From assembly GCA_910890315.1 (NCBI GenBank), contig CAJVGD010000042.1:2046001-2110000 (forward strand): a stretch of DNA of 64,000 bases, written 5' to 3'. The stretch's first letter is position 1. Every line of letters begins with the position of its first letter. This stretch comes from Serendipita indica DSM 11827. Lineage: Eukaryota > Basidiomycota > Agaricomycetes > Sebacinales > Serendipitaceae. The position numbers and the translations under genes are program-made. The notes beneath the pieces are model-generated. The model worked only from the letters and a program-made list of their open reading frames with translations. It did not search any database and had not been told where the DNA came from. Positions 12,798 to 63,600 of the stretch are shown piece after piece.

Positions 12798-15700
12798 TTA
12801 TTCTGCGAGGGCAGCCTTTGCCTTGCGCATACTGAATCGACTCGGACTACCGAGACTTGGTCGGTCAAAGCTTGCGATGCTAGATGCACGAGGGCCGAGT
12901 CCAGTCGACTGTTCGAATTCAAGTCGGACCGTCAAGTTGCCGACACCTTGACGCAGGTCGCTGGTCACAACCGTCGTCGAGACTGCATCGGGACCATTTG
13001 GATTTAGCTTTTCCCAGATTGAAATATCAGCCTGGCCGATGCTCTTGTCCTTGCCAATGGTGTGGTGGTCCATCACTTCGAGATGTAGCGTCTTGGTATC
13101 CGCAGATACTGGGAATGTGAACGACTCGTCCCTGAGGAAAGTTAGCATTGGGATGGTGCGTAGAGAAAGTCGTCTTACCATTCTGGCGCATTCGTCTTGC
13201 TTCCATGCTTCGTCTTGTACTCCTTGCCATTCAGCGAGAGCACCACGTACGGACGTACTTGGTCTCCATCCGAGTCTGCAAGATCTTGTCCCTTTTGCAC
13301 GACAACCCTCAACGTTCCATCCAAAGACACGCCACCGTTGCCACTCCTGGGGAACGTCTGCGAGTCATTGCCAACATTGTATCCCATGGGGAATCTCAGA
13401 CGGGTGACCTGGCGTAGGAGGATCGGTTCGGCTACGGTGGGTATTGGAGGAACATCAAACGTCGTCGTGGCAGCGGGAGGAGATGAAGACGATAGCTCTT
13501 CACCAGCACTAGACTTCTTGCCACCAAACAGACCCTTGACACCTGCACGACCACTGACATTGAACGTGCTCGAGCTCTTCAGACTCTTGTTCACTGCCTG
13601 TGGGTGAAGAGGAGGCGGACGCGGATGGTACCCTTGTCACCAAGTTTGGAAGAGGTGAGTGGCAGCGAGATTTCGGATGCGGTAGATGGCTGAAGCGATG
13701 CAAGATCGACACGAGCTTGTCCGATTGGCTCATCCTGACCAAGGGCATTCCAGTCGAGAACTTGAACAATCATCTCGGCAGCGGCACGAGACACGACTGA
13801 ACAGTCAAACGACTCGTTCCAGGTTGGTGTCAGAGTCTTCTTCTTCGTATCCGTCTTGTACACCTTGTCGCCGTTGAGCGTGACCACGACGTAGGGGTCA
13901 GACGTTCCGCCACGGTCAGCGGCGTGAAGATCTTGGCCGTCGATGATATCCATGCGAAGATTTCCTTGATCTACAAATAGTTAGACCTTCAAAGACGAAG
14001 CGAGTGATAACCAATCATGTACCGCCTGAAAGCTCTTCTCCACCTTCCACACCGGCAGACGACGGAGGAGCGTTGAACGACGTTGCTGTCGGAGGGGGAG
14101 AAGATACGTCGTCTCCACCCTTCTTGCCACTAAAGATGCCCTTGACACCTTTACCAACATTTCCAACACCGCCGACAACGCCCTTTCCGACGATACCGAC
14201 GCCACCAACGACACCTTTACCGACCGCAATGGGTGCGCCACCAACTTGAGTGACCGCTCGACCAGCAGTACTAAAGGTGCTAGTACTCTTGCGACTCTTG
14301 GCCACAATCTGGGGAGTGAAGAGCATACGGACGCGGATATAACCCTTGTCACCATGCTTGGTCGAGGAAAGTGGGAGGGACACTTCGTGGGGAGTAAAGG
14401 CTTCGAGAGAGGCCAAGTCGACTTGCACCTTGCCAATTGGCTCATCTTGTCCGAGCTGATTCCAATCAATGACTTGGAGGACCATATCCGCACCGACGCG
14501 CGACATGACCGTGCACTCAAACGCCTCGTTCCATACCGGTGTCAACGTCTTCTTCTTCCTTTCCGTCTTGTATACTTTGTCGCCGTTGAGTGTGACGACG
14601 ACATAAGGATCAGACGTTCCAGAACGGTCAGCACCGTGGATATCACGACCGTCAATGATCTCCATACGCAGGTTTCCTTGATCTATAGCACTATGAGTGT
14701 ACCTCGAAGAAAGCTACGGCAAATCACGTACTGGACATGCTCTCCCTCGCGGACAACGTGATAGGCACAGGAACAAACTTGGCAGCGACCAGAATCTTGC
14801 ACCTGCTCTCACCATCTTGATTCGAGAGGACAAATTCGGTAGGTCCATCAAGAGCCCTATCCAGAAACTCCTTTGCGTCGACTTTGTATTCCGCTATAAT
14901 ATCCTCCTTTTCGCCGTCACCATTGCCATTGAGACGGAACCAGACACGACCAAAGTCGAGCTCTTTGATGAACCCTTCGCCAACCATGTCCCATTGAGCC
15001 GAGGTGGCATTCGACTTTTGCGTCGAGAACACGGGCCAATAACCGTCGTCCATGAGAATCTCGAGACGTCCCTTCTTGGAGAGCTGACCAGAAATGATAT
15101 CAAACACGATAACACCAGAAGCTAAACAAACCCGTAAGCCATTGAGCGACGATAGGAGAAGAAAGACATACGTGAAGCGAGGATCTGCTCTTTCGTCATC
15201 GCAAGACCTTCATCATGATGAGTCTTGTGCGCATGCCCATTCTCCCCGGCTCTTTGACCTCCGTAGAGCCATTCGCCGGGGCATCCTTCGCAGCCGCACC
15301 ATTCGCCTCTCCATTCTTAGCAGTGCTTGCATGATTATACGTCAAATCCAGTGGCACGTCCTGATCTCCCTCGTCGTCTTCATCATGTACAACCACCTGT
15401 TCAATAGCGTTCTTCGTTCCAAAGCTCACGCCAGCAAGATGGAATGCCGGGATAAACTCTGCCGTATAATGAATCTGGCCCTTTGTCGAATTGTCCACAC
15501 GAATGGGCTCTGTAATCTCTTGAAGTCCGAGACTGCTGAAAGGGTACTTGTCGGCGTCGGGTGCGTCTTCTGGGACAGCCTGAGCGAGCTTATTCACATC
15601 GAGTTCAACGTGGCCGAGCGGACGGTCCTTGGTGAGATGTTGATAATCCATGACTTCAAAGTAAATCGTCTCCTTGAGCGAGTGAACGGGGATGTACATG

Positions 15701-18485
15701 AACTGATCCCAGACAGGGCTGAGATTATTGTTCACGACTTCTGTCCTCGCCAGAACCGTATTGTGGACGCTGGCACGAACATAGGGATCCGACTTGCCTC
15801 CCAAACCGCCTTCGACATTCTTGACGTCGACGGCACGATGCATAAGGACGCGGACGATACCGATAGGTGGGACATATTTGGCAGCACCGTGCAATGAGCC
15901 GGCCATATCCAGCGGCTTCCACTCGGTGCTGACGCGGATACGACCGCTGGAGCAACCAGAGAGCGGGAACCAATCGCGACCTTCCCTTTTGGCGGTGAGC
16001 ATATCCTCGAGCTTGATGTTGACATATCCGATGACGGGGTCCTTCAAAAAATCGCGATCGTCAATCACCTTGATGGTGATGATGCACTCTTCGCGATCCG
16101 AGCAGAGGAACTCTTTGGGTGACTCCCAAACGGGCCTGAGGGTGTGCTTTCCAACGTCGGTGGCATGGATATATTGGCCATTGACAAAGAGCTTGGCAAA
16201 GGCGTTGATATCCTTCGAGATGGTATTCTTGGACGGGTCGAGTTCCTTTGCTTGGTGAAGAACGATGCGCACGATGCCGACATTCGTCTCTGGAAGCGGC
16301 TCGGGCTTTCCATCGACAATAGCGGGCTTGAGGACAGGGAAGAAAGAGACGTCAAACTTGACCTCTCCACGCTCCTTGGCATCGAGGAAAAGCTTGCTAA
16401 CGATACCCTCCTGCGAAGCATCCTCGAGAAGGTTCTTGAGCTCGTAGCTGGCCATACCAAGCTCAGAGTCCTTGCGGTGCTCGTTAAAGTCCCACATAGT
16501 GAGCACGAGCTGACCAGAGAGCGAGCTGACGAGTACAAACTTGGTCTCGTTCCACACTGGTGTTCGCGTACCCATCTTGGGCGTCGTACGTTCGAGGGAC
16601 TGGGTGTTGTTGATGGAGATGGAGACATATGGATCGGGGGTGCCTCCTCCAATCTTGTTTGCCTTGATCCCAGACCCAGAGATGATGGTAACTTGCAAAA
16701 CACCAATGGCAGTGTCGAGCGGTACTCCCGACATCAGCTGCTCCAAATTGAGCGTAAAGACATGGGGCTCGTACATCATCGGTTCGAGGATCATATGAAC
16801 AGTATTTCGGATAAAGTCGGCTAGACCTGGGATGTTGGTAATATCGAAACCAAATGTCTCTCCACCAATTGGCTTGAGCACAAAGTCAAACCACGGCTTT
16901 TCGGTGAAGCAGAGGTCGACGGTTTGGATGTGAGGGAATGATCCAATGAGCTTCATCTTGATCTTCATGACACCCTTGAAGGTGATATCTTCCAAGAGGA
17001 TCGGCATAGAGGCGGTGAACCCTTTGCCGACTCGCACTCCGAGAATGATCTTTGGATTGGTTTTGCTCAAAGCTTGGCGGTAGGTCATGTCCATCACATC
17101 GTTGGGCGTAAAGCTAATTCCCCACTCCATAACGACAGTCTCGTCGTCCGTCTGAGGATAGGTGCGGACGTGATCGATATGCGGAGCCTTTGTGCCGAGG
17201 TTGAACGTTGGAAGTTCGAGTGCGTCAAGGAAGGCGGGTGTCGACGTAGACAGAACCTGGCTGACGGATGACATGATCGTAGCCGATAGAATTGGCTCGT
17301 AGATCAGCCAGAAGCGCTGCATGAAATGATTCATCCAGTCTGCCGATTCCGTTTCATCAATGAGCCGCGTCTTGGTGAGTTCGCGCTGCATATCGTCTTT
17401 GGCCCTCCGACGGAAGCGCTCCATTGACGTCGAGTAGTATGTGCAGCAAAAGGCGAGAAGGACGAGAATCCAACCCCATCCCATGCGGAGCAAAGTCATG
17501 AGGTGTGTCACGACGACAGCCTATAATTTGATTAGAAAGGTCATTCTATGGTTTGAAACCGACATACCACAATGATGATGGCGGCGTTATGGTACCATTC
17601 GCCATAGTACTGTTCGTCGATGAACTGGAACAGAATACCGCGGTCCCGTTCTTCGCCCTCGGCCATGGGTTCGTCGATGCCTGAAACCTGTCGCCATCCA
17701 ATCTTGTACCAATCTGGAATGACGGGAGCCTTTTTCGCTGGCAAGTCCCCTGGAGTAGTCGACGTTTCAGAAACCGCAGAGTGCGGAGACTTTTCCGCCG
17801 CCTTTGCTTCTGCAGTTTCCGTCGCATCGACGTCTTCGACTGTCAATGTCGGAACGATGGGCGGGGCCTTTGTAGCTGGAACAGCAAGGCCTAGAACTCG
17901 TTAGTACAATTGTGTTGATGTGCGAAACATAGGACCCGGAAAACGAGAATAGCAGTGACGTTCTAAATGCAGCTCGCCGCTAAGTTGAATCGTCACAGCC
18001 ACCGCTATGGGGGGATTCAAACTTGGATGAAGCGCGTTTCGCAGAATCCAAGCGTGAGCGCAGAGAGTCGTTGGGTGCTGTAGAGAGCGTCCGGGATGTT
18101 GCTGGAACATGCCAGCTCAGCGAAATGCCAAGCACCCTCGAGGTAAACACGACCAGAACAGTGAGCAGAGTAATAAGACAGGGGATGCGTAGAGCAGTCT
18201 ACAGGTCCAAATAAGAGGCTACTGCATACCTTGAGCTCCCTTGTCTGGGGGTACAACTTGGGGCAGACCCAACGAGGCCTTTGCCTTTGCCTTGAGTGCG
18301 TCAAAGTCCTCCTTGGTCGCGTCTGGTGGGATTATATATGTATTTGTGCCCTTTGCGTTGCTATCTGCGATCACGTCTGAGACGGTCGCATTCTGCAAGT
18401 CGTTGGCGGTCCCGGCGCCGTTGGCAATTTCTGGAACTGGCGGTGGGGGGACAGGACGAGATGGTGGGGGCGTACTCGACGCCAT
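12798..18485 (-). CDS. tricalbin-like SMP and multi-C2 ER-plasma membrane tether
   Basis: About 1,690 residues. Tricalbins anchor in the ER, bind plasma-membrane lipids with C2 domains and move lipids with an SMP domain. Exon 1 (ATG at 18485) is Pro-rich; intron 1 is unusually long (about 18217-17892). Exon 2 ends in a hydrophobic hairpin that continues in exon 3 (from 17520). SMP domain about 17300-16750 (WMNHFMQRFWLIYEPILS to PMMYEPHVFTLNLE). C2 domains follow: 1 (GVLQVTIISGSGIK), 2 (GIVRIVLHQAKELD), 3 (GIVRVLMHRAVDVK), a degenerate 4 (14724-15122, DIISGQLSKKGRLEI), 5 (14300-14682), 6 (13600-13969) and 7 (12870-13330). A GT-AG intron at about 15343-15257 restores the frame between exon 3 and the block HKTHHDEGLAMTKEQIL. 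C2-5 and C2-6 are a recent duplication, each with a Gly/Lys tail. The frame slips by one base near 13600 compared with the sister exon: sequence error or real damage. Confidence 0.9.
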
Positions 18486-18918: not shown

Positions 18919-20440
18919 TCAGTAGCTTGGCAAGAATCGCATCATATTACGCCGTAGGTCTGGACATGAAAGATGGCGTATGTGTGTAGTAAACCTAGTC
19001 ATAAATTCTATCAACGAGCACCTTTCTGAACGTTTGTCCAAGACGGGCCACACTGAAAATTGGGTGAAATCAACCTTAGTCTTGCGGCACCAACCACCCG
19101 AAGGTATAGCTAGAAGAAGTTCGGGGTAATGCCTTAATCCATGCCGATTGTCCAGTGGTACCCAGAAGAGATATCTGTCATCAGATCGCGTCCAGCCGTC
19201 ATGTAGAAGCCAACACTGTTCATATCCCGGGATGAGAGCCCCTAGTGGGTCCCCTCTAATGTTCCATGAGAAACGAATATGAATTAACAACAAGTGAAGG
19301 CCAAACTCACCATTCTCTGCATTCCATATTCGAATAGTCGCATCCTCCCGAGCCAGAGACGATTCGTGAACCTTCTGGAGAGAATGCGACGGCAATGACC
19401 TCACCTGTATGACCCAATAATGGCTGTCCTACCGGTCGACCAATGGTCGTGACCTTTGAACCCGAGACAGTTCGGGAACCGTCTGACGAGATTGCGACAG
19501 CACAAAGCGAGGATTGATGGCCTAGAAGCGGCCCTCCCAGTGGCTGGATAGTGGCTGCATCTCGTATTCGAATTGTACTATCAGTAGAGCCAGAAGCCAT
19601 TCGTAAGTTATCTGGCGAGAATGCGACATCCGATACCCAGTAGTCGTGACCACACAATAGCTCTCCCAACGGCTCAATAGTGTATGCATCCCAGATGTGA
19701 ATCGTCTTACTCAGTGAGACAGAGAAAACGCGTGAACCGTCTGGAGAAAATGCGACCATCATTACTGAGGTTTTGTAGCATTCGAGGGACCCCCGTAATA
19801 GTTTGCCAATGTATGCATCCCATATTCCAACCTTCCCACCCCACGAACCAGAGACAACACGTGCGCCATCTGGCGAGAATACGACAGCCGTTACCCAACC
19901 TCCATGACCTACAAGTGGTCCTTCCAAAAGCCGTCCATTGTCTGGATCCCAAAGTCGAAGTGTCCTGTTCGTCGAACCAGGGACAAGTCGTGAATTATCT
20001 GGTGAAAATGCAATTGCTTGCCCAATCCAAGTGTCCTCGAAGCGGCTGCTGCAACCGCTGACTAGTATCCGCATTCCGCAGTCTAATTTTCTCTCCCGCG
20101 AGCCAGAGGCGATTCGTGAGCCATCTGATGGGATTGCGACGGCAGTCACAGCATATTCACGACCTTGCACCACCGACGATTCATCGGCGCCTACATTGCG
20201 TACGATAGCCCAGAGGCCCGTGATCGCCCGCGGTACTCCTCCTGTAGAGCGTAGAATCTCTATCCAGTACAAAGAATGTGGGATTTGAATATCATACTGA
20301 AGTTCGTTCTCGAGTTTGCGCTGCTGATTGTCGGTCCCTACTGCATGGAACAACCAATGTGAATTAGCATATCGAAGCCTTCGCGAGATGAAACGTGATA
20401 CTCTTGCGGCAAGGTCGAGGATCTGCCTATTGAGGATCAT
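18919..20440 (-). pseudogene. truncated NLR: WD40 and C-terminal tail only
   Basis: C-terminal half of a NACHT-WD40 receptor. At 20440 it starts abruptly inside the post-NACHT linker (RQILDLAARVSRFISRRLRY, equivalent to the linker of the full receptor near 25060-25110), runs through PRAITGLWA and about seven divergent WD40 units (for example AVVFSPDGARVVSGSWGGKV, WVSDVAFSPDNLRMASGSTD), and ends in the same tail found in both other copies (IPGYEQCWLLHDGW, FWVPLDNRHGL). The P-loop and the N-terminus are absent: the sequence immediately upstream belongs to a phosphorylase gene. Its WD40 units differ strongly from each other, unlike the homogenised arrays of the other copies. It may still be transcribed, but it cannot encode a complete receptor. 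Confidence 0.75.
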
Positions 20441-20939
20441 TGGTCGATTGATGCGCGTGTACGCGTTTCGTCTGGTACATCTCGTCGAGGATGGCCATAA
20501 TGGGCATGGCGAGTTCTGCACTCAGCCTGTCCACCGCTTCCCGCACCCCTTCGCTATTCTCCACAGTACTCGATCCATCAACGGGGATTTCAGCGGCATA
20601 AAGGACATTCTTGTCCAGTCGCTTGATGTGCGCCGCGAATGGGAGTTGAGGAACAGCAAATCGGCGGGCTAAATATAGTCAACGCTCCTTCTTAGATCTA
20701 CCATTGAAATCAATTGCACGGACGCACCCTCATTTTCCACTGTGGCCGCCTTGACAAGCCGCTCAATCGGTGCTTGTCCAGGGAAGAATTGGATATGCTG
20801 AAGCGGCTGACTGGTACCGCTCAACACCCCACAATTGAAAAAAGGCGAAAAAGGGTCGGTTGCGAGTATGTGCAGCCAGGAGGAGCAAGTACTTTTGTAC
20901 GAGTTGAGACGGTGTGAGTGGATGAGCCTGCGATTCATA

Positions 20940-22325: not shown

Positions 22326-25300
22326 TCACCGGGTGGTAGTTTTTCGAACTTTGGTCCAAGAGCGACCACATTGAAAATGGCTGAAATCGAGTTTGGTGAC
22401 ACGAAGAGGACTCGTCGTCGGCATGGTCAGAAGGGATTGTGGATATTGTAGTCCATGTCGATTGTTTGGTGGCACCCAGAAGAGGAATCTACCAGAAGAT
22501 TGCACCCAGCCATCGTCCACAAGTGAGCACAGTTTGAAGCCGGGAATAAGAGCGCTTAAAGGAATACCGTCCATTTCTTGGGTGATATCCGTACGTTGGG
22601 AGGTTCCCTCTGTCTCTTGAGAGGGGCTGTCCTCCCGATCTGCTGATACACATGAGTTCACATTGAAATCGGTAGCATGCACAGACGATACAGACCAAAT
22701 GCGTCTCGAAAGAGTGGACCCGCATCACTCGTTGAGGCAGATATGATTGCTAAATTCTCCGGCAAAGACGCCGCAGCGTTGTCCTGGTCGACACGGTGTT
22801 GGAACAAATGCTTTGACGGTAGAACAATATCCGCATCCCAAAGGTGAACAGTGTTGCCTTCAGAACCAGAGACTAATTGTGTGCCGTCTTGAGAGAATGC
22901 GACGGCGTTGACCCAGCTGCTGTGACCTCGGACTGGCTCTCCTATCGGCTCACCAGTCTTTGCGTCCCAAAGTCGAATTGTCTGGTCCAAAGAGCCAGAG
23001 ACGATTCGTGAGCCGTCTGGCGAGAATGCGACGGCGTTGACCCAGTCGCTGTGACCTCGGACTGGCTCTCCTATCGGCTCACCAGTCTTTGCGTCCCAAA
23101 GTCGAATTGTCTGGTCCCTCGAGCCAGAGACGATTCGTGAGCCGTCTGGCGAGAATGCGACGGCGTTGACCGAGTCGCTGTGACCTCGGACTGGCTCTCC
23201 TATCGGCTCACCAGTCTTTGCGTCCCAAAGTCGAATTGTCTGGTCGTCCGAGCCAGAGACGATTCGTGAGCCGTCTGGCGAGAATGCGACGGCCCAAACC
23301 GAGTCGCGGTGACCTCGGACTGGCTCTCCTATTGGCTCACCAGTCTTTGCGTCCCAAAGTCGAATTGTCTGGTCGTCCGAGCCAGAGACGATTCGTGAGC
23401 CGTCTGGCGAGAATGCGACGGCCCAAACCGAGTCGCGGTGACCTCGGACTGGCTCTCCTATTGGCTCACCAGTCTTTGCGTCCCAAAGTCGAATTGTCTG
23501 GTCGTCCGAGCCAGAGACGATTCGTGAGCCGTCTGGCGAGAATGCGACGGCGTTGACCGAGTGGCTGTGACCTCGGACTGGCTCTCCTATCGGCTCACCA
23601 GTCTTTGCGTCCCAAAGTCGAATTGTCTGGTCGCTCGAGCCAGAGACGATTCGTGAGCCGTCTGGCGAGAATGCGACGGCGTTGACCGAGCTGCTGTGAC
23701 CTCGGACTGGCTCTCCTATCGGCTCACCAGTCTTTGCGTCCCAAAGTCGAATTGTCTGGTCCCAAGAGCCAGAGACGATTCGTGAGCCGTCTGGCGAGAA
23801 TGCGACGGCGTTGACCGAGTGGCTGTGACCTCGGACTGGCTCTCCTATCGGCTCACCAGTCTTTGCGTCCCAAAGTCGAATTGTCTTGTCAAAAGAGCCA
23901 GAGACGATTCGTGAGCCGTCTGGCGAGAATGCGACGGCGTTGACCCAGTCGCTGTGACCTCGGACTGGCTCTCCTATCGGCTCACCAGTCTTTGCGTCCC
24001 AAAGTCGAATTGTCTGGTCGCTCGAGCCAGAGACGATTCGTGAGCCGTCTGGCGAGAATGCGACGGCGTTGACCCAGTGGCTGTGACCTCGGACTGGCTC
24101 TCCTATCGGCTCACCAGTCTTTGCGTCCCAAAGTCGAATTGTCTGGTCGCTCGAGCCAGAGACGATTCGTGAGCCGTCTGGCGAGAATGCGACGGCGTTG
24201 ACCGAGTCGCTGTGACCTCGGACTGGCTCTCCTATCGGCTCACCAGTCTTTGCGTCCCAAAGTCGAATTGTCTGGTCCCAAGAGCCAGAGACGATTCGTG
24301 AGCCGTCTGGCGAGAATGCGACGGCGTTGACCGAGTGGCTGTGACCTCGGACTGGCTCTCCTATCGGCTCACCAGTCTTTGCGTCCCAAAGTCGAATTGT
24401 CTGGTCCTCGAGCCAGAGACGATTCGTGAGCCGTCTGGCGAGAATGCGACGGCGTTGACCGAGTGGCTGTGACCTCGGACTGGCTCTCCTATCGGCTCAC
24501 CAGTCTTTGCGTCCCAAAGTCGAATTGTCTGGTCCCTCGAGCCAGAGACGATTCGTGAGCCGTCTGGCGAGAATGCGACGGCGTTGACCCAGCTGCTGTG
24601 GCCTCGCAAACTGTCAGGGAACCCAGGATACACCTCCTCGAGGCCTTGAATCACCCTCAACGTCTCACTATACTCCCTTAGACCTTCAATCCGTAGAATA
24701 GACTTTTTGGGCATAAACGGAAGCGCTGACACGTAAATATGTGGAGCGCTGTCCTGAATCGGCACCAAAAACGCTATCAAACACCTCAGGGTATCATTGA
24801 TCCGCCATCTTATCTTTTCTCCGAGCTAAATGTCATCTCAGCGGCTGGTACCCGTAGTCTAGAATACTCACTGCCATGTTATGTGAGAGCGCACGCAGAC
24901 CGTCGATTGCTCGTGGCACGTTTCTCGTGAAGCTGAGAACCTCCATCCAATATAGCACTTGTGGACTCTGAAGAATGTACTCAAAATCCTTCTCGAGTGG
25001 GCGCGGCTTCTTGTTGTCCATTCCAGACACATGGAACAACCAATGGGAGCTGGCATATCGAAGTCTTCTTGGAATAAATTTGGATATTTTCTCGTCGAGA
25101 TCTGGAATCTGCTTGTTCAGGTAGAATGATGACTCGAGTCGACATATGTTGAACTTGAGACCGTCAGTCGGCGACATGAGGTGTTGAAGACACCACGATG
25201 CAGCTTGACTGTGTGCATTGGCAATATTGATAGAAATTTTGTTGCGGCTGTCAGAGGCTGAGTGGATGGAGCAACGTTGAAGATATTCTACGAGCGTAGG

Positions 25301-27141
25301 GTGGCGAAACTGAATAAGATTTGTCGTTTTATCTGTGCTGAGCACGCTCCCGAGATTTCGTACCAACGCTTTGGCACTTCCGTGTAATTTTGCCTGCTTC
25401 AATATATCGTCCAGGTCGTCAACAGTGAGCGGTTCAAACGCAGCGAGGAGCAGTGCCAGCATTTCACACATGGCGCCTTGGTAATCGAGTTCTATACGCT
25501 CGAAGATGAGACTGTATACGTTGTCAATGGCACCAGCGCTCTCCAGGGAGATGAGACGGTCATATATCACCTCTGGAGAATGCAGGTTTGTTTCGCTCGT
25601 GAGCATTCGGCATGCGGTGCTCGCCCAGATGAACAACCCGTTAGCTTTTTTGATCAGACCTTGTCTCTTCTCCTTCGGTAGAATCTCGTACAGAGAATTA
25701 TGTACGTAGACGGCAATGTCACCAATATTGTCAGAATGTTCGATATTATGCAGGCGATCCTCTAGCTTTTCCTTGATTGACAGTGGTCGCAAAACTGCTT
25801 CGATGGCCGAGTCCGGTCGACTCGTGATGAAAATTTTGAGATTTGTGCTCTCGAGTAGCTGTGGCGAGAGTTTCGAGGAGCTCCTTTCGCTGCGTTCCAG
25901 ATTTGCACTCATCAATAGCGTCGATGACAAGAACAACTCGCCTCCTTCGATGGCGGAGTGGACGGGTGATGAGCGTGCGGAATTGTTCGCTCAATGAACT
26001 TCGCATGATAGCCGGGTTCTGCGTCACGGCTTCGGTGATATGTGGTGCAAGTTCTGGGATGTGGTGAACGAGTTCCCTGGCCATCGTCGAGCAGAATTTC
26101 TCGGTGGTGGATGCTTCACTGTTGCTCATAGAGAAGAAGAACTGGCCTCCTAGCGTTCCATCTGCTCTCCACATCTCCATGACGGACATTGCGACGGTGG
26201 ATTTGCCAGAGCCTGCTATATCGCATACCCAGAATATGGGTTTCCCCGACTCATCATCCTCGGCCCAGCGTGAGATGGTCTCAAGAACTGCTTGACGCGT
26301 TCCCTGTAAACATGGATTGTGAACTGACGACGCGACGAATGTGACCAATGGAAGCTGTAGTATAGCAGCAGATTTATCCACTTGAAACAGTCAGCAACAT
26401 CTTTGTGCACAAAATTTGGCTCACCATTGGCCAGGATAGCCTGGTTGGCTTGGACACGGGATGCAGTAAAGACGATCATTGCCTCCTGTCCTTTCGTGAG
26501 ATGAAGAATATAGCAGATAATCATCGTACCATGAATTGCCTATGCGCATCCTCGATATCACGATTGAATTTACGAATGGCTCCTGCATCGACTTTCACTT
26601 TCCCGATTCCAGTAAGCGCGTTGATGCTCATGCGGCGTCGTTTGTGAGCTTGGTTCACCACCGTACTAAAACCCTCCAGAACCTGAATCGATTAGCACAT
26701 ACAATAGCGCTGGATCCCAAACGCACTTCTGGTACCGAAGGAGACGGCTCAACACCTCATCTGGAACACTCTCAAAGGAGTTCTTCGGGAATGAGTCGAT
26801 TTGTTCCTTGATTGCTGACTTGTATTGCTCCATACGTTGCATCAGCTCGATCCAGTCCTCTTGGTTATCATCGATAGCCTGATATATCGATAAGATAATG
26901 GAATTATACCGGTCAGCAAGCTAACCTGCATGGCATCAATGATCGATTTCGTCGTTCGAGAGGCAGCTTTGAGAGGAGCAAGTATATCTGATGCCTCTGC
27001 TGCATTTGCAACCACCTCGAGGCCGAAGCTAGCTGCACTATTTACTCGAGCTCTCTTGCGCGACGATCCTCCAGCTGAACTGGATGTTCCTTGAGAATAT
27101 GAAGTTGCATTATTGGACGTGTTTGGCCTTTGGGAAGACAT
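22326..27141 (-). CDS. STAND/NLR receptor: helical N-terminus, NACHT, WD40 array (copy 1, frame-broken)
   Basis: HET-E-type receptor of the kind linked to non-self recognition and cell death in fungi. ATG at 27141 ([11 protein letters not shown]). Exons at 27141-26927 and about 26880-26540 encode a helical region ([57 protein letters not shown]) resembling MLKL/HeLo-like four-helix domains. The NACHT exon (from about 26380) has P-loop [10 protein letters not shown] and Walker [12 protein letters not shown], then [25 protein letters not shown] and [19 protein letters not shown] intron (about 24870-24825) leads to 13 near-identical WD40 units plus a degenerate last one, and a tail ([20 protein letters not shown]) that ends at 22326. 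Two frame breaks are seen: near 25860, where two bases seem missing between [10 protein letters not shown] and STNLKIF, and near 24404, one base short in a WD40 unit. Real decay or consensus error cannot be told apart here. Confidence 0.85.
22955..24600 (-). repeat. tandem array of 13 WD40-coding 129-bp units (array 1)
   Basis: Each unit is 129 bp (43 aa) and almost identical. Units recur every 129 bp from about 22970 to 24520. Fixed text on the protein side includes [27 protein letters not shown] and [10 protein letters not shown]. Differences concentrate in the residue before DQ (L, R, D, S, W or F) and in three or four residues after GH (for example HSDW, HSSW, HSDS, HRDS, HSHS) and N or W before AVAF. 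Confidence 0.95.
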
Positions 27142-28013
27142 TCCCGGAGGTGGATGGTTCCAAGTTGGCTCGGCGCCTGCCACTCTCCATTGATAAATGC
27201 GGTGAAGGATACAACTCGGTTCGATACTTGACCACCACTTGTTTCCGTCAATTCCTCTGGTCTTCTTGAAGACAAGTGAACTATGAGACCGGCTGGTTGG
27301 AATTAATACTTAGCGGACACTACCCGAAGCTGGCTTGGCCATGACGGATTGAGTAAGGAGCCAAGTTTACCAGCCACTAGAAGTCGAAAGCTTGCCCAAG
27401 CTCCGAGCCTCCTCAGCTGCAGTGACGAACCGCCGAAGCCGACCTCGAGTCTGCCTGATTATCCGGAGAGAGGGAGTGGAGCAGTCACAGCTGACCTTCA
27501 TCAGTGATTTCCGATTTAATTTACCGTAACGAAGAGACTGGCCCCTATACTTCGAGTACTGCCGCCCTATCGACTGGGCCCTTACAGCGTTACATAGTCC
27601 AGACGCACCTTTAATTGCTGACCACACAATGGCTCATTTTAAAATAAAAAGCTCGCTATCATCTCTATGGCAGACCCTAGAACCTAAGAGTTCGAGGAGT
27701 CCCGAGAACTGAGCAGCCTGAGATTCGAACCGGTGGCCTCTCGGACTAAACCCCCGTGGACGAGGTCTGGCGGTTTCCCACCAGATATTTCTATCGACTT
27801 TTTATTGACGAACGCAAAGAACACATGAAGTGGCCCGGCAAGCCCTTACCAAAAATAGTAAAGAGAGGGAGCAGTCCCATAACGCCGTTGAAAGTTATAT
27901 AAGCGAAACAAAGTTTACTAAGCAGAACGCTAGCTCATGCTTCAATCCTTGTACTCACGGTGGCCAAACAACGAGGCCGGCGTAGAATCCACCTCGACCA
28001 CCGCGACGAGCAA
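27142..28013. other. divergent intergenic region between NLR copy 1 and UGO1
   Basis: About 870 bp holding both promoters. At about 27718-27735, minus strand, a GGTTCGAATC box resembles a tRNA/SINE B box, and an imperfect inverted repeat (AGTTCG ... GAGAACT) lies at 27689-27710. No complete cloverleaf can be folded, so I do not call a tRNA. Nothing else is recognised. Confidence 0.4.
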
Positions 28014-30379: not shown

Positions 30380-32448
30380 ATGTTGTGCTCGTCAGTCGCC
30401 TCCTTTCTTGCTTTCGCCCTCGTTGGAGGTGCCAGCCACGCCTTTGCTGCTACGGCAGAGCAGTGGAAAGAGCGTACAATCTACCAGTGAGTCACCCTCT
30501 CGCCTTGCATGCTCACCCTAACAAAGCCTCACAGGATCATTACCGATCGCTTCGCCCTCCCAACGTCCATAGATCAATCCACATCCTGCAACGTCACTGA
30601 CCAAACCTTTTGCGGTGGAACATGGAGCGGCATCACCGCCATGCTGGATTACATTACATCCATGGGATTCACTGCGATCTGGATCAGCCCCGTCCACAAG
30701 AATTATGATGGTCCACGCACGGCGTATGGTGATGCGTATCATGGCTATTGGGTTACCGACATTGGAGCGCTCAATGATCGCTTCGGTACCGCGGACGATC
30801 TCAAGACGTTGGTTGCTGAAGTCCATCGTCGTGGGATGCTAATCATGGTTGATATCGTTGTCAATCACGTCGCATCAGTCACGACGACTCCAACGGACTA
30901 TTCTCAATACTACTTCAAGGATGCGGTTGGTGCATTATCCGCCATTGTAATTGCCTGCTCACTTTGCTATAGTCCAAATATCACCCATACTGCCCTATTC
31001 AATACGGTGACGGTCATTCTGAGCAACAATGCTGGATGGGCGATACCAAGGTTGCACTCATGGACGTCAACACTGAGAACCCAGACGTCGTCAGCAGCTA
31101 CAACTCGTGGATCAAGGACTTTGTGCATGAATACTCTATCGATGGACTACGACTCGACGCGGCAAAGCACATTCGAGGCGACTTTTGGCCAGGCTTTTGC
31201 CAAAGCGGAGGAGTGTTCTGCATGGGGGAGGTCTATGAGTTTGAAGCTGCTTCAGCGGCACGGTGGCAGTATAACCCTGTGCAACCTTCTGCTGTGTCGT
31301 CGGCTACCTGGAGGAAGTGGCTCAGACCCAGTCGGCATGGATAGTATCCTCAACTTTCCGCTCTACAATGCCCTTGTTCAGGCTTTCGGTATCACGGGAC
31401 AATCTACCGACGGGACGTTGGATCTCACGGTACTGGAGCGCAAAGTCAACGATATGAACGGTGCTTTTGCGGACGTAGGTGTGCTTGGGATCTTCCTCGA
31501 GAACCACGACGTCCCCCGATGGTCGAACATCAGCGTGGATCCTCAAAGCCTTTAGTGCGTTACGAAAGCCGTTAAAGGCCATTAGCTGACCAGCTTTAGC
31601 AATGCACTCACGTTTCTGTGGATGACAGACGGCATTCCAATTGCGTACTATGGTATCGAGCAGGGCTTCCACGGCGGACCTGATCCATCGAACCGCGAAG
31701 CTCTTTGGCCTTCATCGTACGCCAACACTACGACTGTGCAGATCCTCACTAAGCTCAACCAACTCCGCAACTGGATGATCATCACCGCAAAGCAACGTCT
31801 TTCGAAGCGGGTCGAAGAAGGCATCGCGTGGCAGGATAACGAGAAGGTGTACAAGACCCACCATCAGGAAACCACTTTTTCAAAGGACGCTGATGTTCGG
31901 AGCTCGTATATCAGCACGCCGCCTGTCATTGTCGGGGCGACAAAAGAGGCAATGGCTATTACGAGGGGTGGAGTGATCGGGGTTGTGACCAACATTGGCT
32001 CTCCGGTGAGCTCGGTGGCTGAATCTGCCACTGTAGCTAACAACTTTCAACTCTCTCAGCCACAGAATATTAGCTTCCCGGTCTTGACACCATACGAGCG
32101 AAGCGTAGCGACGACAGAGTGCGTCCTTACTTACTTTTTTTTGGGGTATATCTGACTCTAATGTAGCATCTTCTCCTGCGTACAATATGCTGTCGGTAGT
32201 GATGGCATCGTCTCAGTCGAGTACTCTAAAGGTGGTCGCCCAATTGTGAGTTTCTGACTATTTAGCAAGAGAGATATTGAACAATGATTTAGATTCTCGT
32301 CCCAAGCGTCTGGCTACCTGGCTCCGGATTCTGCGGATTCAAGGCGGATTCAAACGCACTCATTGGCGTCGAGACTGACGGCGCTTATAAATGCGGTGTC
32401 TCAGTAGTCAACTTAGGATTGCTGGTACTATTGATGTTGGTGATGTGA
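30380..32448 (+). CDS. secreted alpha-amylase, GH13
   Basis: Endo-acting starch hydrolase. ATG at 30380 opens a signal peptide ([20 protein letters not shown]) ending near AFA. Catalytic-domain motifs in order: [22 protein letters not shown] (region I), the nucleophile motif [11 protein letters not shown] (region II, about 31140-31170), the acid/base GEVYE (region III, about 31225) and FLENHD (region IV, about 31496). Introns include about 30487-30534 and 30937-30983; the second joins to [20 protein letters not shown]. Between GEVYE and [16 protein letters not shown] the frame changes with no canonical intron that fits, and a third frame reads [13 protein letters not shown], so at least one base is likely missing there. 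The C-terminus (stop 32446-32448) is hydrophobic ([14 protein letters not shown]), suggesting a GPI-anchor signal. Substrate is inferred from the family. Confidence 0.88.
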
Positions 32449-43519: not shown

Positions 43520-46500
43520 ATGGCTCATCGTTATCCTTTATACCAATATCCTCTTCATCATTTTCCACGCCACAATCCGAATTGCCACTGTAACATCTTG
43601 CATCCGTACGACCAAACGACAAACCGCGGCGACTTCCACCATTTACGTTCACGGACTTCCTCGTCTTCTTCCAACTCTTCGACTACTTCTTCTCAAACGG
43701 ATTCGTCTTGGGTGTACATTGATGGCACTGACCCAAACCATCTTAACCCGCCTCTCGCGCGTGACCACACCATGCGTATCACATTCGCCGATCCCCAACC
43801 TGCCATTCCACCCTCTGATGACCAACTGGTCGAATCGATGGCTTCCTCTACTGTCACGATTCGGCCTGATAATGCGGTCACTTTCCCTTCGATAACGGGC
43901 GGTTTCCCAACCGTCCATATCCAAAATTATGCACACCCCGTGTCCGCGATGTCAATCTGCTCGTTGGACGAACTGTACTTCCCTATCGAATGGGAACAAC
44001 GACCGCCGCCACCACCACCTCAACCCACGCTCGTCGTTCAACCCGGCTCTTCATCCGCATCTAGATGGCTGTTGCAAGTCCATGATGTGCCGCGCAAGTC
44101 GAGGACAGAGACGCAAGTCAAACTCCGAGTGCAGCTTGTCGACGTCTCAGCATCAGCTTCTCCATACCCTGACGGTACGTTACTGCTTCTCTTGATCGGC
44201 CTGTCTCTTCTTTGTATGCTGAACTGGCCCTACCAGGCTCCACTGGTGAACCCGTCACTCAGTATAGTCACATTTTGGTACCGAATACCCCCAGTGTCAA
44301 GACAAAGACTCGAGGCGTCGGAGGTGCGTTTTGTTTTGCCATTGGTTCCTTCCCCTTTCAGAATTCGCACCCGTCATGCGGCGGATGTCGATCCTTCTCA
44401 ACTGGGATGGGATCTCTACTCCCTTTAATGAAGCTACGCGGCCTCCATTGGAAGCTGAACGCTCGTTTCTTATAACCTTACTCGAGTTTCTGGCATGGTC
44501 AACGTGTGAACGCTACCCATGATCGTATTGATACTGACTGCCTCTTCTTTCGAAGATCCGGACCCCTCTGCTTTGCTGACGCTACATGCGTACATCGTCT
44601 GCGCCACGGTCCCAGAATACCAGAACAAGCCAGTACCATGCTGCGAAAGTTGCCAAAAGAGGGAGCGAAATCGCAATTCAAAGAAGAAGACTGGCGCTGG
44701 GACCGCGAGCTTGAAGGGACGCTCCGCCGCCAGTTCAAAGAATGTCACCCCAGCGACCTCGACGAACGCCACCCCGGCCACGTCTGATGCGGAGATGTAC
44801 TCTGCCCCATCTGGATCCCACGCTCATGCATATCCCTTTCAGAGGGAGGGCTTCGAAGAAGCTGGAGAGGGTTATGTCTCCCCGATTGACTTTACGTGCA
44901 ATCGTCTAGTCGACTTTTCCTCTGGGACTGCGTCGCTCAGCTTTAGGATTGTGTGCTATTGCCGGCACTATAAAGAGAAGAATGGGTTTTGGTGAGTAGT
45001 CGTCTGTGAGGGAGAGAACTTGGTTACTCAAGCTTTTGTCTAGCGTGCAGCTCCAACTCAGGGATAGTGCCAATCGCGTCGTGGGCAAGGTCAAGACGAC
45101 GCCGATTATGATCATGGACGATCACAAGTCGGTCTCCAAGCTCACGCCGGCGCATACCGCCGATGAAGAAGAGGTCGACACGGGCGCTGCTAAAAGGAGG
45201 ACCAAGCGAATTGTTGCGCGCTACTCGGAGAGTGAAGCTCGTATCAAGGAGGAGGATGGGGATGATTTTGAGGAAGGAGGAGTCGGGGCGATTAGGAATA
45301 AGCACCGGCTTAGTCGCCACTCTGTGCTTTCCCAATCGGCTGGCAGCCTTACGAAGCTCACTTCTTCGAAACCGGCCTCTGCGAGTGTCAATGGGCCTAC
45401 CATTTCCAATGCACCGTCGACTAGTCGATCTGGACAGGGTCATGCACACCGCCACAGCCAGTCGTACACGCATTCCGAGAGTCCTCTTCCCACTACGGCA
45501 CCATCCTCGCCATCCGTTGGATTCTCTCCACAACCATCCCATGCGACCGGCGACACAGGTGCAAAGTCAGAGGCCGAGCTTAATGCATTCGCGCCCCTTC
45601 AGCCTTTTGGCTCATCGATACCCCTTTCGGCCAACGACAATCTCCTGCTCAACAATCCTCTCATGCAAGCCATGCCCAGCGTGAACATGGCCCTGTCTGG
45701 AATGACGCTCTCTTCGCCCGCTACGGCCATGGCGCCTCAGCCCAACCCATTCCCACATATCACGCGAGTTATGCCAGCCTCTGGTCCCGTCCAAGGCGGG
45801 ATTGAAATCACGTTGTTGGGCGCCAACTTTTCGCCTGAGGCGCTAACGACGGCGTGCATTGCGTTTGGCGAAAATATCGTTCCGTTTGGTCCGACTGTGC
45901 AAATCTTTAGCAATAGTGCGCTCATTTGCTCGCTTCCTCCACGCTCCGTTGCTGGGCCCGTCGAGGTGAAGCTGGTGGGTGTTCGAGAGATGGCGCCTGG
46001 AGTAGCAAGTCCTGCGCCCATCTTCACTTATACGGATGAAGGTGACAAGGACTTGTGAGTATTGTTACTATCGACCGACAATTGCTGACTTTTCTTTCAA
46101 TAGGATGATCCATGCTCTTCAGATTCTTGGCTGGCAAAACTCTGGTCAATGGCAGGATCCGCGAAGCGTTGCCATGGGTATCCTTGGGGGTGGAGGATCT
46201 GGTGGTGGTATGAGCGGTCTTATGCAAAGCGATGCCGATATGGGATTCGGTGGCGGTGGTTTCACATTTGCTGCTGCTAATCGTAATGGTGTCAACGTTC
46301 GTGGACCCCACCAAGCGACTCAGCCTGGTGGTCGACGGAACGTGGAAGCACTCGTCCTCAATGTTCTACGATCCGCTCGCAATCCCGAAACAGACACGAT
46401 CAACCACCTCTCTGCGCCACATCCTGCAACGGGTCAAACAATCCTACATCGTGCTTGTGCGCTGGGGTACCAGACTCTTGTCTCGGCACTCATTGGTTGG

Positions 46501-47670
46501 GGTGCCGACGTGGACTTGACAGATAAGAATGGCTTTACGCCTGTCCATTTTGCGTGCTTCTATGGTCATCTCAAGTGCATCGACATTCTCGTTCGCCAAG
46601 GCCGTGCCCATCTTGAAGGTCGCGATCACCAGGGACGTACACCGCTGGACGTTTGCGGTACGGAAGGAGCAATCGAGGTTATACGTGACCTCGAGGAAGA
46701 AGTCGAGACGAGAAGGCGTCGTTCGACTGCTCCTAGCGAAATCGAAAGCGGTGGCGAGGGTGACGATGAAGGACTATCATGGTCCGAGGCAGACGATGAC
46801 GAAGAAGAGGAAGAGCCTCCTAAACCTGCGTCGAGGCGTATATCTAGGGTCAACTCGGTGGCGTCTATCGTCTCGAACCGTAGACTTGCCAAGCCTACCA
46901 CCCCATTCGCCCCGGAGCCATTCACTGCGATTCATCCTTCGGTTTCTGCGCATTCTTCTGCTCCAGTTGCAGCTCCAACTCGTCAACCCTGGTGGTCGAT
47001 GCCTCTTCCTGGTCGAGGAGGGGCTACGGCGACACCGGTACCGGAAAAATTCCTCAAGAGTAGTGCGGAAGCATCCCAGACTGAACAGGAGCAAATGTTC
47101 CGATGGTTCCGCGAGATGAGGGAGAGTTGGACCATTTGGCGTCAACAACAGCAACAACAGCTGGACCTTGAACCCCCACCAAGTTATACTCCATCCGACC
47201 CGGTGTCAAAGCTTCATCTGATCGCCCACGAAAAGGTTGCTACTGGGGCCGCTGGAACCCCCGCCGTGCCCACCGAGTTGGAGGAACCGCCGTCTCCTTT
47301 ATCGTTGGACTCGCAATTTGAACATGTTCCAACAAGGACTATCTCGCGTTCGACATCGAATATTCGTTTACGTCAACAGCAAATTGTTTACCGTCGACGG
47401 GCTGACCGCGAAGTGCTCGGCGAGCAACCACAAATGCATGCCGCAGATGTTGGGCCACGACGGGCAGCGAAGAAGCGGGACACTATGCTCATTTACTTCT
47501 GGATACCGGTTCTTCTTGGTATGTTTACCCTACGAGCTACGAACTATGCTGACACTCCTTTAGCTGTGTTTGTGTGGATGACCTATAAATCCGTCGGACT
47601 TGTCTATCGCTCCTTTACATCTCATCCGCTCATGCAGAACTCGGCAGCGTTCATTCAAGAAACCGTTTGA
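43520..47670 (+). CDS. SPT23/MGA2: Spt23/Mga2-type membrane-anchored transcription factor
   Basis: Family role, from yeast: an ER-anchored precursor senses membrane lipid packing, is ubiquitylated, partly processed by the proteasome and released by Cdc48-Ufd1-Npl4 to activate OLE1. ATG at 43520 (MAHRYPLYQYPLHHFPRHNP) is preceded by a TATA box. Order: Ser-rich N-terminus; a conserved block with VHDVPRKSRTETQVKLRVQL (about 44080-44140) and RMSILLNWDGISTPFNEA; a long linker with Lys/Arg clusters; the IPT/TIG domain (PHITRVMPASGPVQGGIEIT to PAPIFTY, 45752-46030); two ankyrin repeats (GQTILHRACALGYQTLVSAL, NGFTPVHFACFYGHLKCIDI, 46430-46600); an acidic stretch; a Gln-run; and a C-terminal membrane helix split by an intron (LIYFWIPVLL ... 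AVFVWMTYKSVGLVY). Stop at 47668-47670. The set and order of domains is diagnostic. CDS may extend upstream to 42210. Confidence 0.88.
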
Positions 47671-60607: not shown

Positions 60608-63600
60608 TTACAATAATTCGCCAGTGGCAGTTGTTCGAACTTTGGCCCAAGAGGGACCACATTGAAAATGACTGAAATCGAGTTTGGTTACACGAAGAGA
60701 ACTCGCCTTCGGCATGGTTAGAAGGGATTGCGGATATTGTAGTCCATGTCGATTGTTTGGTGGCACCCAGAAGAGAAATCTACCAGAAGATTGAACCCAG
60801 CCATCGTGCACAAGTGAGCACTGATTGAAGCCAGGAATAAGAGTGTTTAAAGGAATCCCGTCCATTTCCTGGGGGATATCAGAGGGTTGGGGGGTTCCCT
60901 CTGTCTCTTGAGAGCGGCTGTCTTCACCACCTAGTGATACGCGTGAGTTGACATTGAAATTGGCAGCATGCACAGACTATACCGACCAAATGCGTCTCGA
61001 GAGACTGGACCCATGTCACTCGTGGAGCCAGATATGATTGCTAAATTCTCCGGCAAAGACGCCGTAGCATTGTCCTGGTCGACACGATGTTGGAATAAAT
61101 GATTCGACGGCAGAACAATATCCGTATCCCAAAGGCGAATGGTGTTGTCTTGAGAACCAGAGACTAATTGTGAGTCGCTTTGAGAGATAGCGACGGCGGT
61201 GACCGATCGCTGTGGCCTCGGAGTGGGTCTCCTACCGGCTCACCAGTCTTTGCGTCCCAAAGTCGAATTGTCTGGTCCCAGAGCCAGAGACGATTCGTGA
61301 GCCGTCTGGCGAGAATGCGACGGCGGTGACCGAGCTGCTGTGGCCTCGGAGTGGGTCTCCTACCGGCTCACCAGTCTTTGCGTCCCAAAGTCGAATTGTC
61401 TCGTCCTCGAGCCAGAGACGATTCGTGAGCCGTCTGGCGAGAATGCGACGGCGTTGACCGAGTGGCTGTGGCCTCGGAGTGGGTCTCCTACCGGCTCACC
61501 AGTCTTTGCGTCCCAAAGTCGAATTGTCTGGTCCAAAGAGCCAGAGACGATTCGTGAGCCGTCTGGCGAGAATGCGACGGCGTTGACCCGAGTCGCTGTG
61601 GCCTCGGAGTGGGTCTCCTACCGGCTCACCAGTCTTTGCGTCCCAAAGTCGAATTGTCTGGTCGTCAGAGCCAGAGACGATTCGTGAGCCGTCTGGCGAG
61701 AATGCGACGGCCAAGACCGAGCTGCTGTGGCCTCGGAGTGGGTCTCCTACCGGCTCACCAGTCTTTGCGTCCCAAAGTCGAATTGTCTGGTCGCTCGAGC
61801 CAGAGACGATTCGTGAGCCGTCTGGCGAGAATGCGACGGCGTTGACCCAGCTGCTGTGGCCTCGGAGTGGGTCTCCTACCGGCTCACCAGTCTTTGCGTC
61901 CCAAAGTCGAATTGTCTGGTCCCAAGAGCCAGAGACGATTCGTGAGCCGTCTGGCGAGAATGCGACGGCGTTGACCGAGTTGCTGTGGCCTCGGAGTGGG
62001 TCTCCTACCGGCTCACCAGTCTTTGCGTCCCAAAGTCGAATTGTCTGGTCCTCGAGCCAGAGACGATTCGTGAGCCGTCTGGCGAGAATGCGACGGCGTG
62101 ACCGAGTGGCTGTGGCCTCGGAGTGGGTCTCCTACCGGCTCACCAGTCTTTGCGTCCCAAAGTCGAATTGTCTGGTCCAAAGAGCCAGAGACGATTCGTG
62201 AGCCGTCTGGCGAGAATGCGACGGCGGTGACCGAGCTGCTGTGGCCTCGGAGTGGGTCTCCTACCGGCTCACCAGTCTTTGCGTCCCAAAGTCGAATTGT
62301 CTGGTCCCAGAGCCAGAGACGATTCGTGAGCCGTCTGGCGAGAATGCGACGGCGTTGACCGAGTGCTGTGGCCTCGGAGTGGGTCTCCTACCGGCTCACC
62401 AGTCTTTGCGTCCCAAAGTCGAATTGTCTGGTCCCAAGAGCCAGAGACGATTCGTGAGCCGTCTGGCGAGAATGCGACGGCGTTGACCGAGTCGCTGTGG
62501 CCTCGGAGTGGGTCTCCTACCGGCTCACCAGTCTTTGCGTCCCAAAGTCGAATTGTCTGGTCGTCGAGCCAGAGACGATTCGTGAGCCGTCTGGCGAGAA
62601 TGCGACGGCGTTGACCAGCCGCTGTGGCCTCGGAGTGGGTCTCCTACCGGCTCACCAGTCTTTGCGTCCCAAAGTCGAATTGTCTGGTCCAAAGAGCCAG
62701 AGACGATTCGTGAGCCGTCTGGCGAGAATGCGACGGCGGTGACCGAGTGCTGTGGCCTCGGAGTGGGTCTCCTACCGGCTCACCAGTCTTTGCGTCCCAA
62801 AGTCGAATTGTCTGGTCCCTCGAGCCAGAGACGATTCGTGAGCCGTCTGGCGAGAATGCGACGGCGTTGACCCAGTGGCTGTGGCCTCGGAGTGGGTCTC
62901 CTACCGGCTCACCAGTCTTTGCGTCCCAAAGTCGAATTGTCTGGTCGTCGAGCCAGAGACGATTCGTGAGCCGTCTGGCGAGAATGCGACGGCCAAGACC
63001 GAGTCACTGTGGCCTCGCAAACTGTCAGGCAGCCCAGGATACACCTCCTCGAGGCCTTGAGTCACCCTCAACGTCTCACTATACTTTTTTAGACCTTCAA
63101 TCCGTAGAATAGACTTTTTGGGCATAAACGGAAGCGCTGAGATGTAAATATGTGGAGCGCTCTCCTGAATTGGCACCAAAAACGCTATCAAACACCTTAG
63201 GGTGTCATTGATCCGCCATCTTATCTCTTCTCCGAGCTACATTTCATCTCAGCGTCCGGTCCCCGTTGGATAGAATACTCACTGCCATGTTATCTGAGAG
63301 CGCGCGCAGACCGTCGATTGCTCGTGGCACGCTTCTCGTGAAGCTAAGAACCTCCATCCAATATAGCACTAGTGGACTTCGAAGAATGTACCCAACATCG
63401 TTCTCCAGCGGGCACGGCCTCTTGTTGTCCATTCCTGACACATGGAACAACCAATGCGAGCTGGCATATCGAAGTCTTCTCGGAATATATTTTGATATTC
63501 TGATATCAAGATCTGGGATCTGCTTATTGAGGTAGAAAGATGACTCCAGTCGACATATGTTGAACTTGAGACCATCAGTCCGCGACATGAGGTGTGCAAG

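Follow-up and report, generated by a model that had tools for sequence, protein, structure and literature searches.

Array 1, a tandem array of near-identical WD40 units, lies at the end of an NLR-type NACHT-WD40 gene in Serendipita indica DSM 11827. Taking all evidence together, we consider it likely that this array is a diversified NACHT-WD40 sensor and that the indels found in arrays of its type are most likely consensus errors of the assembly.

Layout of the Array 1 Gene

The analysed window, a stretch of 64,000 nucleotides, corresponds to bases 2,046,001–2,110,000 of contig C40, and the array 1 gene lies on its minus strand. The following features were assigned.

22802–24606, minus strand: WD40 array 1, consisting of 13 near-identical units of 43 residues and of a 14th, degenerate unit (22802–22930), from repeat finding and unit alignment
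24406–24407, minus strand: shortened G run in variable codon 24 of unit 2, one base missing and frame shifted, a probable consensus error
22661–24496, minus strand: open frame of 612 codons with units 3–14 and the tail; its first approximately 30 codons are unit 2 out of frame
25749–26390, minus strand: first part of the NACHT exon (NPHP3_N 1.4e-25, NACHT 8.5e-12)
25848–25852, minus strand: GA run two bases below that of the paralogues A2 and L043 in the alignment, shifting the NACHT frame
24836–25990, minus strand: open frame with the remainder of the NACHT exon, from the match to PIIN_10987
24826–24871, minus strand: 46-bp intron between the NACHT exon and the array exon (GTGAGT...TTTAG), from the sequence compared with gene model P0121
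22329–22724, minus strand: open frame with the probable C-terminal exon, from P0002, the model of the paralogous array 2 gene
26524–27309, minus strand: stretch in which the N-terminal exons probably lie, with no family scoring above the cut-off, from likeness to P0198

The open frame at 22661–24496 matched the Pfam WD40 family with 6.5e-163. In the protein search with the array, 7994 candidates were scored, 7977 of them with E ≤ 0.001, and the best 120 were WD40-rich proteins from many sources, which contributed only a few gene models. Upstream of array 1 and on the same strand, the NACHT family scored 45.7 bits (cut-off 26.7). The protein PIIN_10987 of S. indica DSM 11827 showed 99% identity over 64% of the frame 24836–25990 and is part of the array 1 gene; the corresponding model P0121 joins the later part of the NACHT exon to array 1. 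The model P0198, which was used for the N-terminal region, reads as the gene model of the paralogue L043. No match to the HET domain was found in the frames 26845–27309, 26669–26920 and 26524–26691 or in P0198, a result on which it bears that the N-terminal exon structure of the array 1 gene is only partly resolved. Likewise, no effector family scored above the cut-off in the N-terminal frames scanned or in the paralogue model.

For the WD40 NLRs of the high-internal-conservation (HiC) class a repeat identity of more than 85% over at least 100 residues is used (PMC4986451). The array 1 gene possesses the NACHT domain and shows this degree of repeat identity; its reading frame is not intact. 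As assembled, it is broken by two frameshifts, one or both of which may be assembly errors.

Several other genes were observed in the window. A further WD40 frame of 404 codons lies at 19307–20521 on the minus strand, and a gene with C2 and SMP domains at 15196–17511 on the same strand. The plus strand carries a piece of an alpha-amylase gene (30509–31555) as well as TIG and ankyrin frames with weak matches to SPT23/MGA2 (45006–47670).

Unit Structure and Diversified Codons

The program TRF detected the repeat at 22866–24606 with a period of 129, 13.5 copies and 96% matches. The 14 units start on the minus strand at 24606, 24477 and 24349 and from there at intervals of 129 bp as far as 22930, where the degenerate unit begins. 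A first-pass annotation of this DNA had placed the array at 22955–24600, which we correct to 22802–24606. The unit length of 129 bp given there holds for all full units except unit 2, which has only 128 bp (the G run at its variable codon 24 is one base short), and the units are consequently not all in one frame. The central observation of that annotation, 13 near-identical units which vary at a few codons, is real. Only 15 of the 129 columns vary among the 13 full units, and the mean pairwise identity amounts to 95.6% for the DNA (minimum 89.9%) and to 94.0% for the amino acids (minimum 88.4%).

Codons were numbered from the R-G-H of the unit, and the frameshifted codon of unit 2 was left out. 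With this numbering, the amino-acid changes of the 13 units are confined to codons 4, 5, 6, 8, 24 and 26, and four further codons show silent variation only. The residue in front of DQ had been described as variable; indeed R, W, S, F, D and L were seen there, followed by DQ or DK. The residues after GH vary in the way described, with HW and a leading S or R as additional forms. N and W both occur in front of AVAF as had been reported, but with 11 N and 2 W this position is not freely variable. The two units with W (codon 8) agree at all six variable positions and have R at codon 4. Units 10 and 11 are identical in their six variable residues, and so are units 3 and 7.

The pairwise difference per base was 0.252 in the six codons versus 0.0043 in the unit body, the latter figure omitting codons 7, 23 and 25. 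The unit alignment and per-codon selection count that had been proposed for this array were run in the form of pN/pS by simple counting. This revealed a pN/pS of 5.6 in the six codons, and elsewhere a pN of 0 with a pS of 0.039. Across the seven of 21 arrays for which it was computed, pN/pS in the six codons ranged from 1.2 to 9.7, with merely 1.2–1.8 in L041, L058 and L048; this counting takes no account of unit relatedness or recombination.

Based on the Podospora papers and on homology, codons 4, 5, 6 and 8 would be located in the d-a loop and at the start of strand a, and codons 24 and 26 in the b-c turn. All six would thus be part of the ligand-facing top of the propeller.

Paralogous Arrays and Possible Exchange of Units

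A DNA search with one unit yielded 407 matches in the genome, and 20 regions were taken from the matches listed. Arrays 1 and 2 of the window and 19 of the 20 fetched regions make up the 21 arrays compared here. When all 21 are taken together, the six codons occupy ranks 1–6 by amino-acid difference, with a mean of 0.54 versus 0.05 in the remaining codons. The top six codons of each individual array overlap the six of array 1 by four to six, where in arrays with just five variable codons one place among the top six goes to a codon tied at zero. All six codons could be read in 205 of the 250 full units, and 168 different six-codon combinations occurred among these 205.

Array 2 (A2; window 61127–63017, minus strand, 15 units) is a second array of the same gene family. 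A NACHT match was found on its strand just past the end of the window (C40:2110208–2110627). Apart from the six codons and codons 7, 23 and 25, its 14 full units are free of base differences, and every one of its 12 one-base indels is situated at or beside variable codons. Fixed differences between arrays 1 and 2 are restricted to codons 39, 41 and 43, and the two arrays have five codon variants in common at codon 24 and three at codon 5. Such shared variants, like the repeated units within array 1, would be expected if units were copied within as well as between arrays.

The paralogue L043 (C40:2116000–2122500) is encoded on the strand opposite to array 2. Its NACHT exon resembles that of array 2 up to approximately alignment column 1030 and that of L040 thereafter, with many small indels before the switch; it is either a mosaic gene or a misjoined stretch. 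The array of L040 (C40:167000–174500) comprises 23 detected units. The maximum in the survey of PMC4986451 is 21 units; however, the 23 units of L040 are no record because a NACHT protein of Penicillium with 47 blades has been described (PMC9218822). L040 and L042 have array units near-identical to those of array 1, array 2 and L043, yet their N-termini are seemingly different. In both, a hydrolase-like stretch was observed, presumably of the SesB type, and the two frames scanned gave no Pfam match; array 1, array 2 and L043 possess a different stretch there. These differing N-termini would fit the domain swapping described in PMC4986451.

Arrays 1 and 2, L040, L041 and L042 are referred to below as A1-type arrays; together they contain 77 full units. 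At the six codons, C or G is the last base of 33 of the 39 distinct alleles of the five A1-type arrays, against an expected 51%, and of 76 of the 112 of the 16 other arrays (expected 51.5%). In the unit body the corresponding values are 28 of 56 and 100 of 197. The alleles are not independent, and the excess over the codon usage of the family may reflect the third bases of the founders and few silent changes.

Assembly History and Indels at Variable Codons

The genome of S. indica was resequenced with MinION R9.5 (324 Mb of reads), assembled with Canu and subjected to eight Pilon rounds with MiSeq reads, resulting in 57 contigs and 24.7 Mb (PMC8385953). The MinION and MiSeq reads are public under study PRJEB45884. 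The assembly analysed here contains 55 contigs with 24,708,602 bases and fits the published one, as judged by size, contig number and species. A Nanopore depth of approximately 13-fold is calculated from the 324 Mb of reads. The strain was judged to be most probably heterokaryotic (two distinct nuclei, 2.6 SNPs/kb; PMC3192844).

The five A1-type arrays contain 20 one-base indels, 16 of them in codons 4, 5, 6, 8 and 24 and four in codons 23 and 25. One of the 20 belongs to the degenerate last unit of array 2, the other 19 to full units. In the alignment of the full A1-type units, 0 of 7854 cells in the body and 19 of 2079 cells in the variable stretches were gaps, codons 23 and 25 having been joined to the variable stretch only after the indels had been inspected. 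Sixteen of the 19 indels are one-base homopolymer changes of a segment which is found intact elsewhere in the A1-type arrays; of the remainder, two are other insertions and one has no intact parent. The body of the reference unit contains 16 homopolymer runs, corresponding to approximately 1232 runs over the 77 units, and none of these was changed in length. The TTTGGGACGC stretches of the A1-type arrays, 77 in number, were altered in no case. Selection fails to explain this placement because a frameshift is equally harmful wherever it occurs in the unit.

Probably, the one-base indels of the A1-type arrays are consensus errors of an assembly from low-depth Nanopore and short reads, because reads from different units or nuclei disagree at those codons. 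In the unit body all reads would agree, and polishing would remove the errors. At the variable codons there would be conflicting reads, derived from other units, from other genes or from the second nucleus, and raw errors would persist. In an R9 Nanopore assembly, a one-base homopolymer deletion in a het-d repeat was judged to be a misassembly (PMC12222747). The reads might moreover disagree if the heterokaryotic, multinucleate mycelium held many array versions, with nuclei differing in unit order and variable codons and thereby providing a somatically or allelically diverse repertoire within one individual. This extension we consider unlikely.

Frame-breaking unit spacings were counted in 17 of 77 cases in the five A1-type arrays versus 11 of 177 in the other 16 arrays, and array 2 alone supplies 11 of the 17. 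Body indels are present in some of the 16 other arrays (L044, L045), and seven of the 21 arrays show no broken spacing at all. A rise of frame errors with the number of near-identical foreign units, which was also considered, was not upheld, given the share of array 2 in the broken spacings.

The gene models were compared with the assembly. At codon 24 of unit 1, P0121, the model of PIIN_10987, has L and the assembly has R, and the unit 2 part of this model is garbled; the PIIN_10987 tag belongs to the series of the 2011 assembly based on 454 reads (PMC3192844). The array 2 model P0002 is a patchwork in which some stretches are skipped and others read out of frame. The unit order, the variant codons and the gene integrity of array 1 are not reliable in the assembly.

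Alternative Explanations

It is possible, if on balance doubtful, that the array 1 gene is a true pseudogene. The frameshift in the NACHT exon, perhaps also that in unit 2, would then be real, and the homogeneity of the units would be due to exchange with live paralogues. Compared with five aligned paralogues the NACHT exon shows a 2-bp deletion, the GA run at 25848–25852 being shorter than in A2 and L043. The sequence around this deletion is distinguishable, with 92.6% likeness to the closest of the five paralogues, and the deletion may be a true mutation since short reads should be able to correct an error in such surroundings. The neighbouring paralogues A2 and L043 likewise contain frame-breaking NACHT indels, and the NACHT frames of L040, L041 and L042 are open over 531, 535 and 518 codons, respectively. 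Furthermore, NWDp1 and NWDp2 of Podospora have kept their WD arrays nearly clean as dead genes (PMC1805685). The deletion in unit 2 bears the signature of a consensus error, which speaks against a pseudogene. The start of model P0121 lies downstream of the NACHT deletion, and a protein search for an independent copy spanning this deletion yielded no near-identical protein (best identity 76%).

We regard it as quite unlikely that array 1 is a recently amplified propeller without a recognition role, the blades of which are alike only through recent copying, with the Nostoc protein 2YMU as an example. Propellers with near-identical blades occur in many bacteria and fungi (PMC9218822), and 2YMU was the best-scoring solved sequence for units 8–14 of array 1. 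However, recent amplification predicts variation across the whole unit, whereas the amino-acid changes of array 1 sit on the six codons only.

Real indels generated by a process that acts on the variable codons, such as an error-prone repair of mismatched heteroduplexes when units are exchanged, would account for the coincidence of indels with variable codons in five arrays and for the three of 19 that cannot be derived from an intact parent by a simple homopolymer change. This explanation is very improbable, as the majority (16 of 19) are homopolymer length changes such as expected of Nanopore errors, the frames are not restored and the assembly history predicts the pattern. The differences in units 1 and 2 between P0121 and the assembly might suggest that the variable codons themselves are mostly assembly noise, but many of the variants are clean codons that lie two or three bases apart, and the six codons are also the leading ones over the 21 arrays, seven of which have no frame-breaking spacing, which renders this idea extremely improbable.

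Proposed Function

As a diversified NACHT-WD40 sensor, array 1 would represent the sensor domain of an NLR-type receptor with each unit forming one blade. The invariant unit body would maintain the propeller fold, and codons 4, 5, 6, 8, 24 and 26 would create the surface facing the ligand. Unequal crossing-over or gene conversion may homogenise and reshuffle the units, and selection may retain variants that change the bound ligand. The changing surface might sense a protein of another individual, of a microbe or of the fungus itself. Binding of the ligand would lead to oligomerisation of the NACHT domain, upon which the N-terminus would trigger a defence or cell-death response.

Comparison with Known Systems

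The WRAP protein of Nostoc punctiforme (2YMU) resembles array 1 in possessing 14 near-identical WD40 units, and its structure was solved as two seven-blade propellers (PMC8458387). In the alignment, the position of codon 8 is occupied by R, W or N among its blades. In contrast to the array 1 gene product, 2YMU is a bacterial protein without known function, and it is not reported as a diversified receptor in the accessible part of PMC8458387. The arrangement of array 1 as two seven-blade propellers, which the first-pass annotation had put forward, is plausible in view of the 14 units and the 2YMU precedent. The blade number itself is not fixed because between 5 and 23 units were detected per array among the 21 compared; five arrays have 14 units and another five have 15. 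Divergent units may have escaped these counts.

The NLR repertoire of Serendipita (Piriformospora) indica comprises 274 NLRs, the largest number in a 2014 survey (PMC4986451), and 99 NACHT-WD (NWD) ORFs were counted (PMC3192844). This repertoire shares species and strain name with the array 1 gene, of which PIIN_10987 is a part. The array 1 gene is a further genuine member of an NLR kind already known from S. indica. The per-codon pattern and the indel pattern were not found in the accessible parts of PMC3192844 and PMC4986451. The new point is that the variable codons in the assembly are not to be taken at face value. A hybrid assembly of Nanopore and short reads is likely to err in such arrays exactly at the residues of interest, and gene models such as P0002 can hide the resulting frameshifts.

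The HNWD and NWD genes of Podospora (het-d, het-e, het-r and nwd) likewise combine a NACHT domain with an array of highly alike WD40 units, and in the HNWD proteins this array decides recognition (PMC12222747). Their repeats are classed by positions 10, 11, 12, 14, 30, 32 and 39, which were picked for high dN/dS (PMC12222747). The Podospora numbering was matched to that of array 1 by equal spacing and not by aligning HET-E; with an offset of six, codons 4, 5, 6, 8, 24 and 26 correspond to positions 10, 11, 12, 14, 30 and 32. All six variable codons hence fall within the seven Podospora positions (hypergeometric P 1.1e-6), and the counterpart of position 39, codon 33, is invariant in array 1. 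This agreement bears out the likeness to Podospora HNWD receptors, a homogenised body with diversified codons, that had been noticed at first sight. The strongest codons of Podospora, 7, 9, 25 and 27, form two pairs flanking conserved residues (PMC1805685), and codons 6 and 8 around V7 and codons 24 and 26 around D25 of array 1 display the same spacing. The variable residues of the Podospora repeats were placed on the top of the propeller (PMC1805685). The array 1 codons include the counterparts of these four strongest sites, which supports the earlier suggestion that they would face the top as well.

Nevertheless, there are differences. In the N-terminal frames scanned, the array 1 gene shows no HET match, and it is broken as assembled. 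Its units consist of 43 residues versus 42 in Podospora. Usually 11 conserved and three cryptic units are present there, and HET-E was modelled accordingly as two seven-blade rings (PMC12222747), whereas array 1 has 13 conserved units and one degenerate unit. The basidiomycete S. indica shares with Podospora the same six diversified WD40 positions, which lead in 21 arrays of one genome. This correspondence supports a common evolutionary route for the sensors of fungal NLRs.
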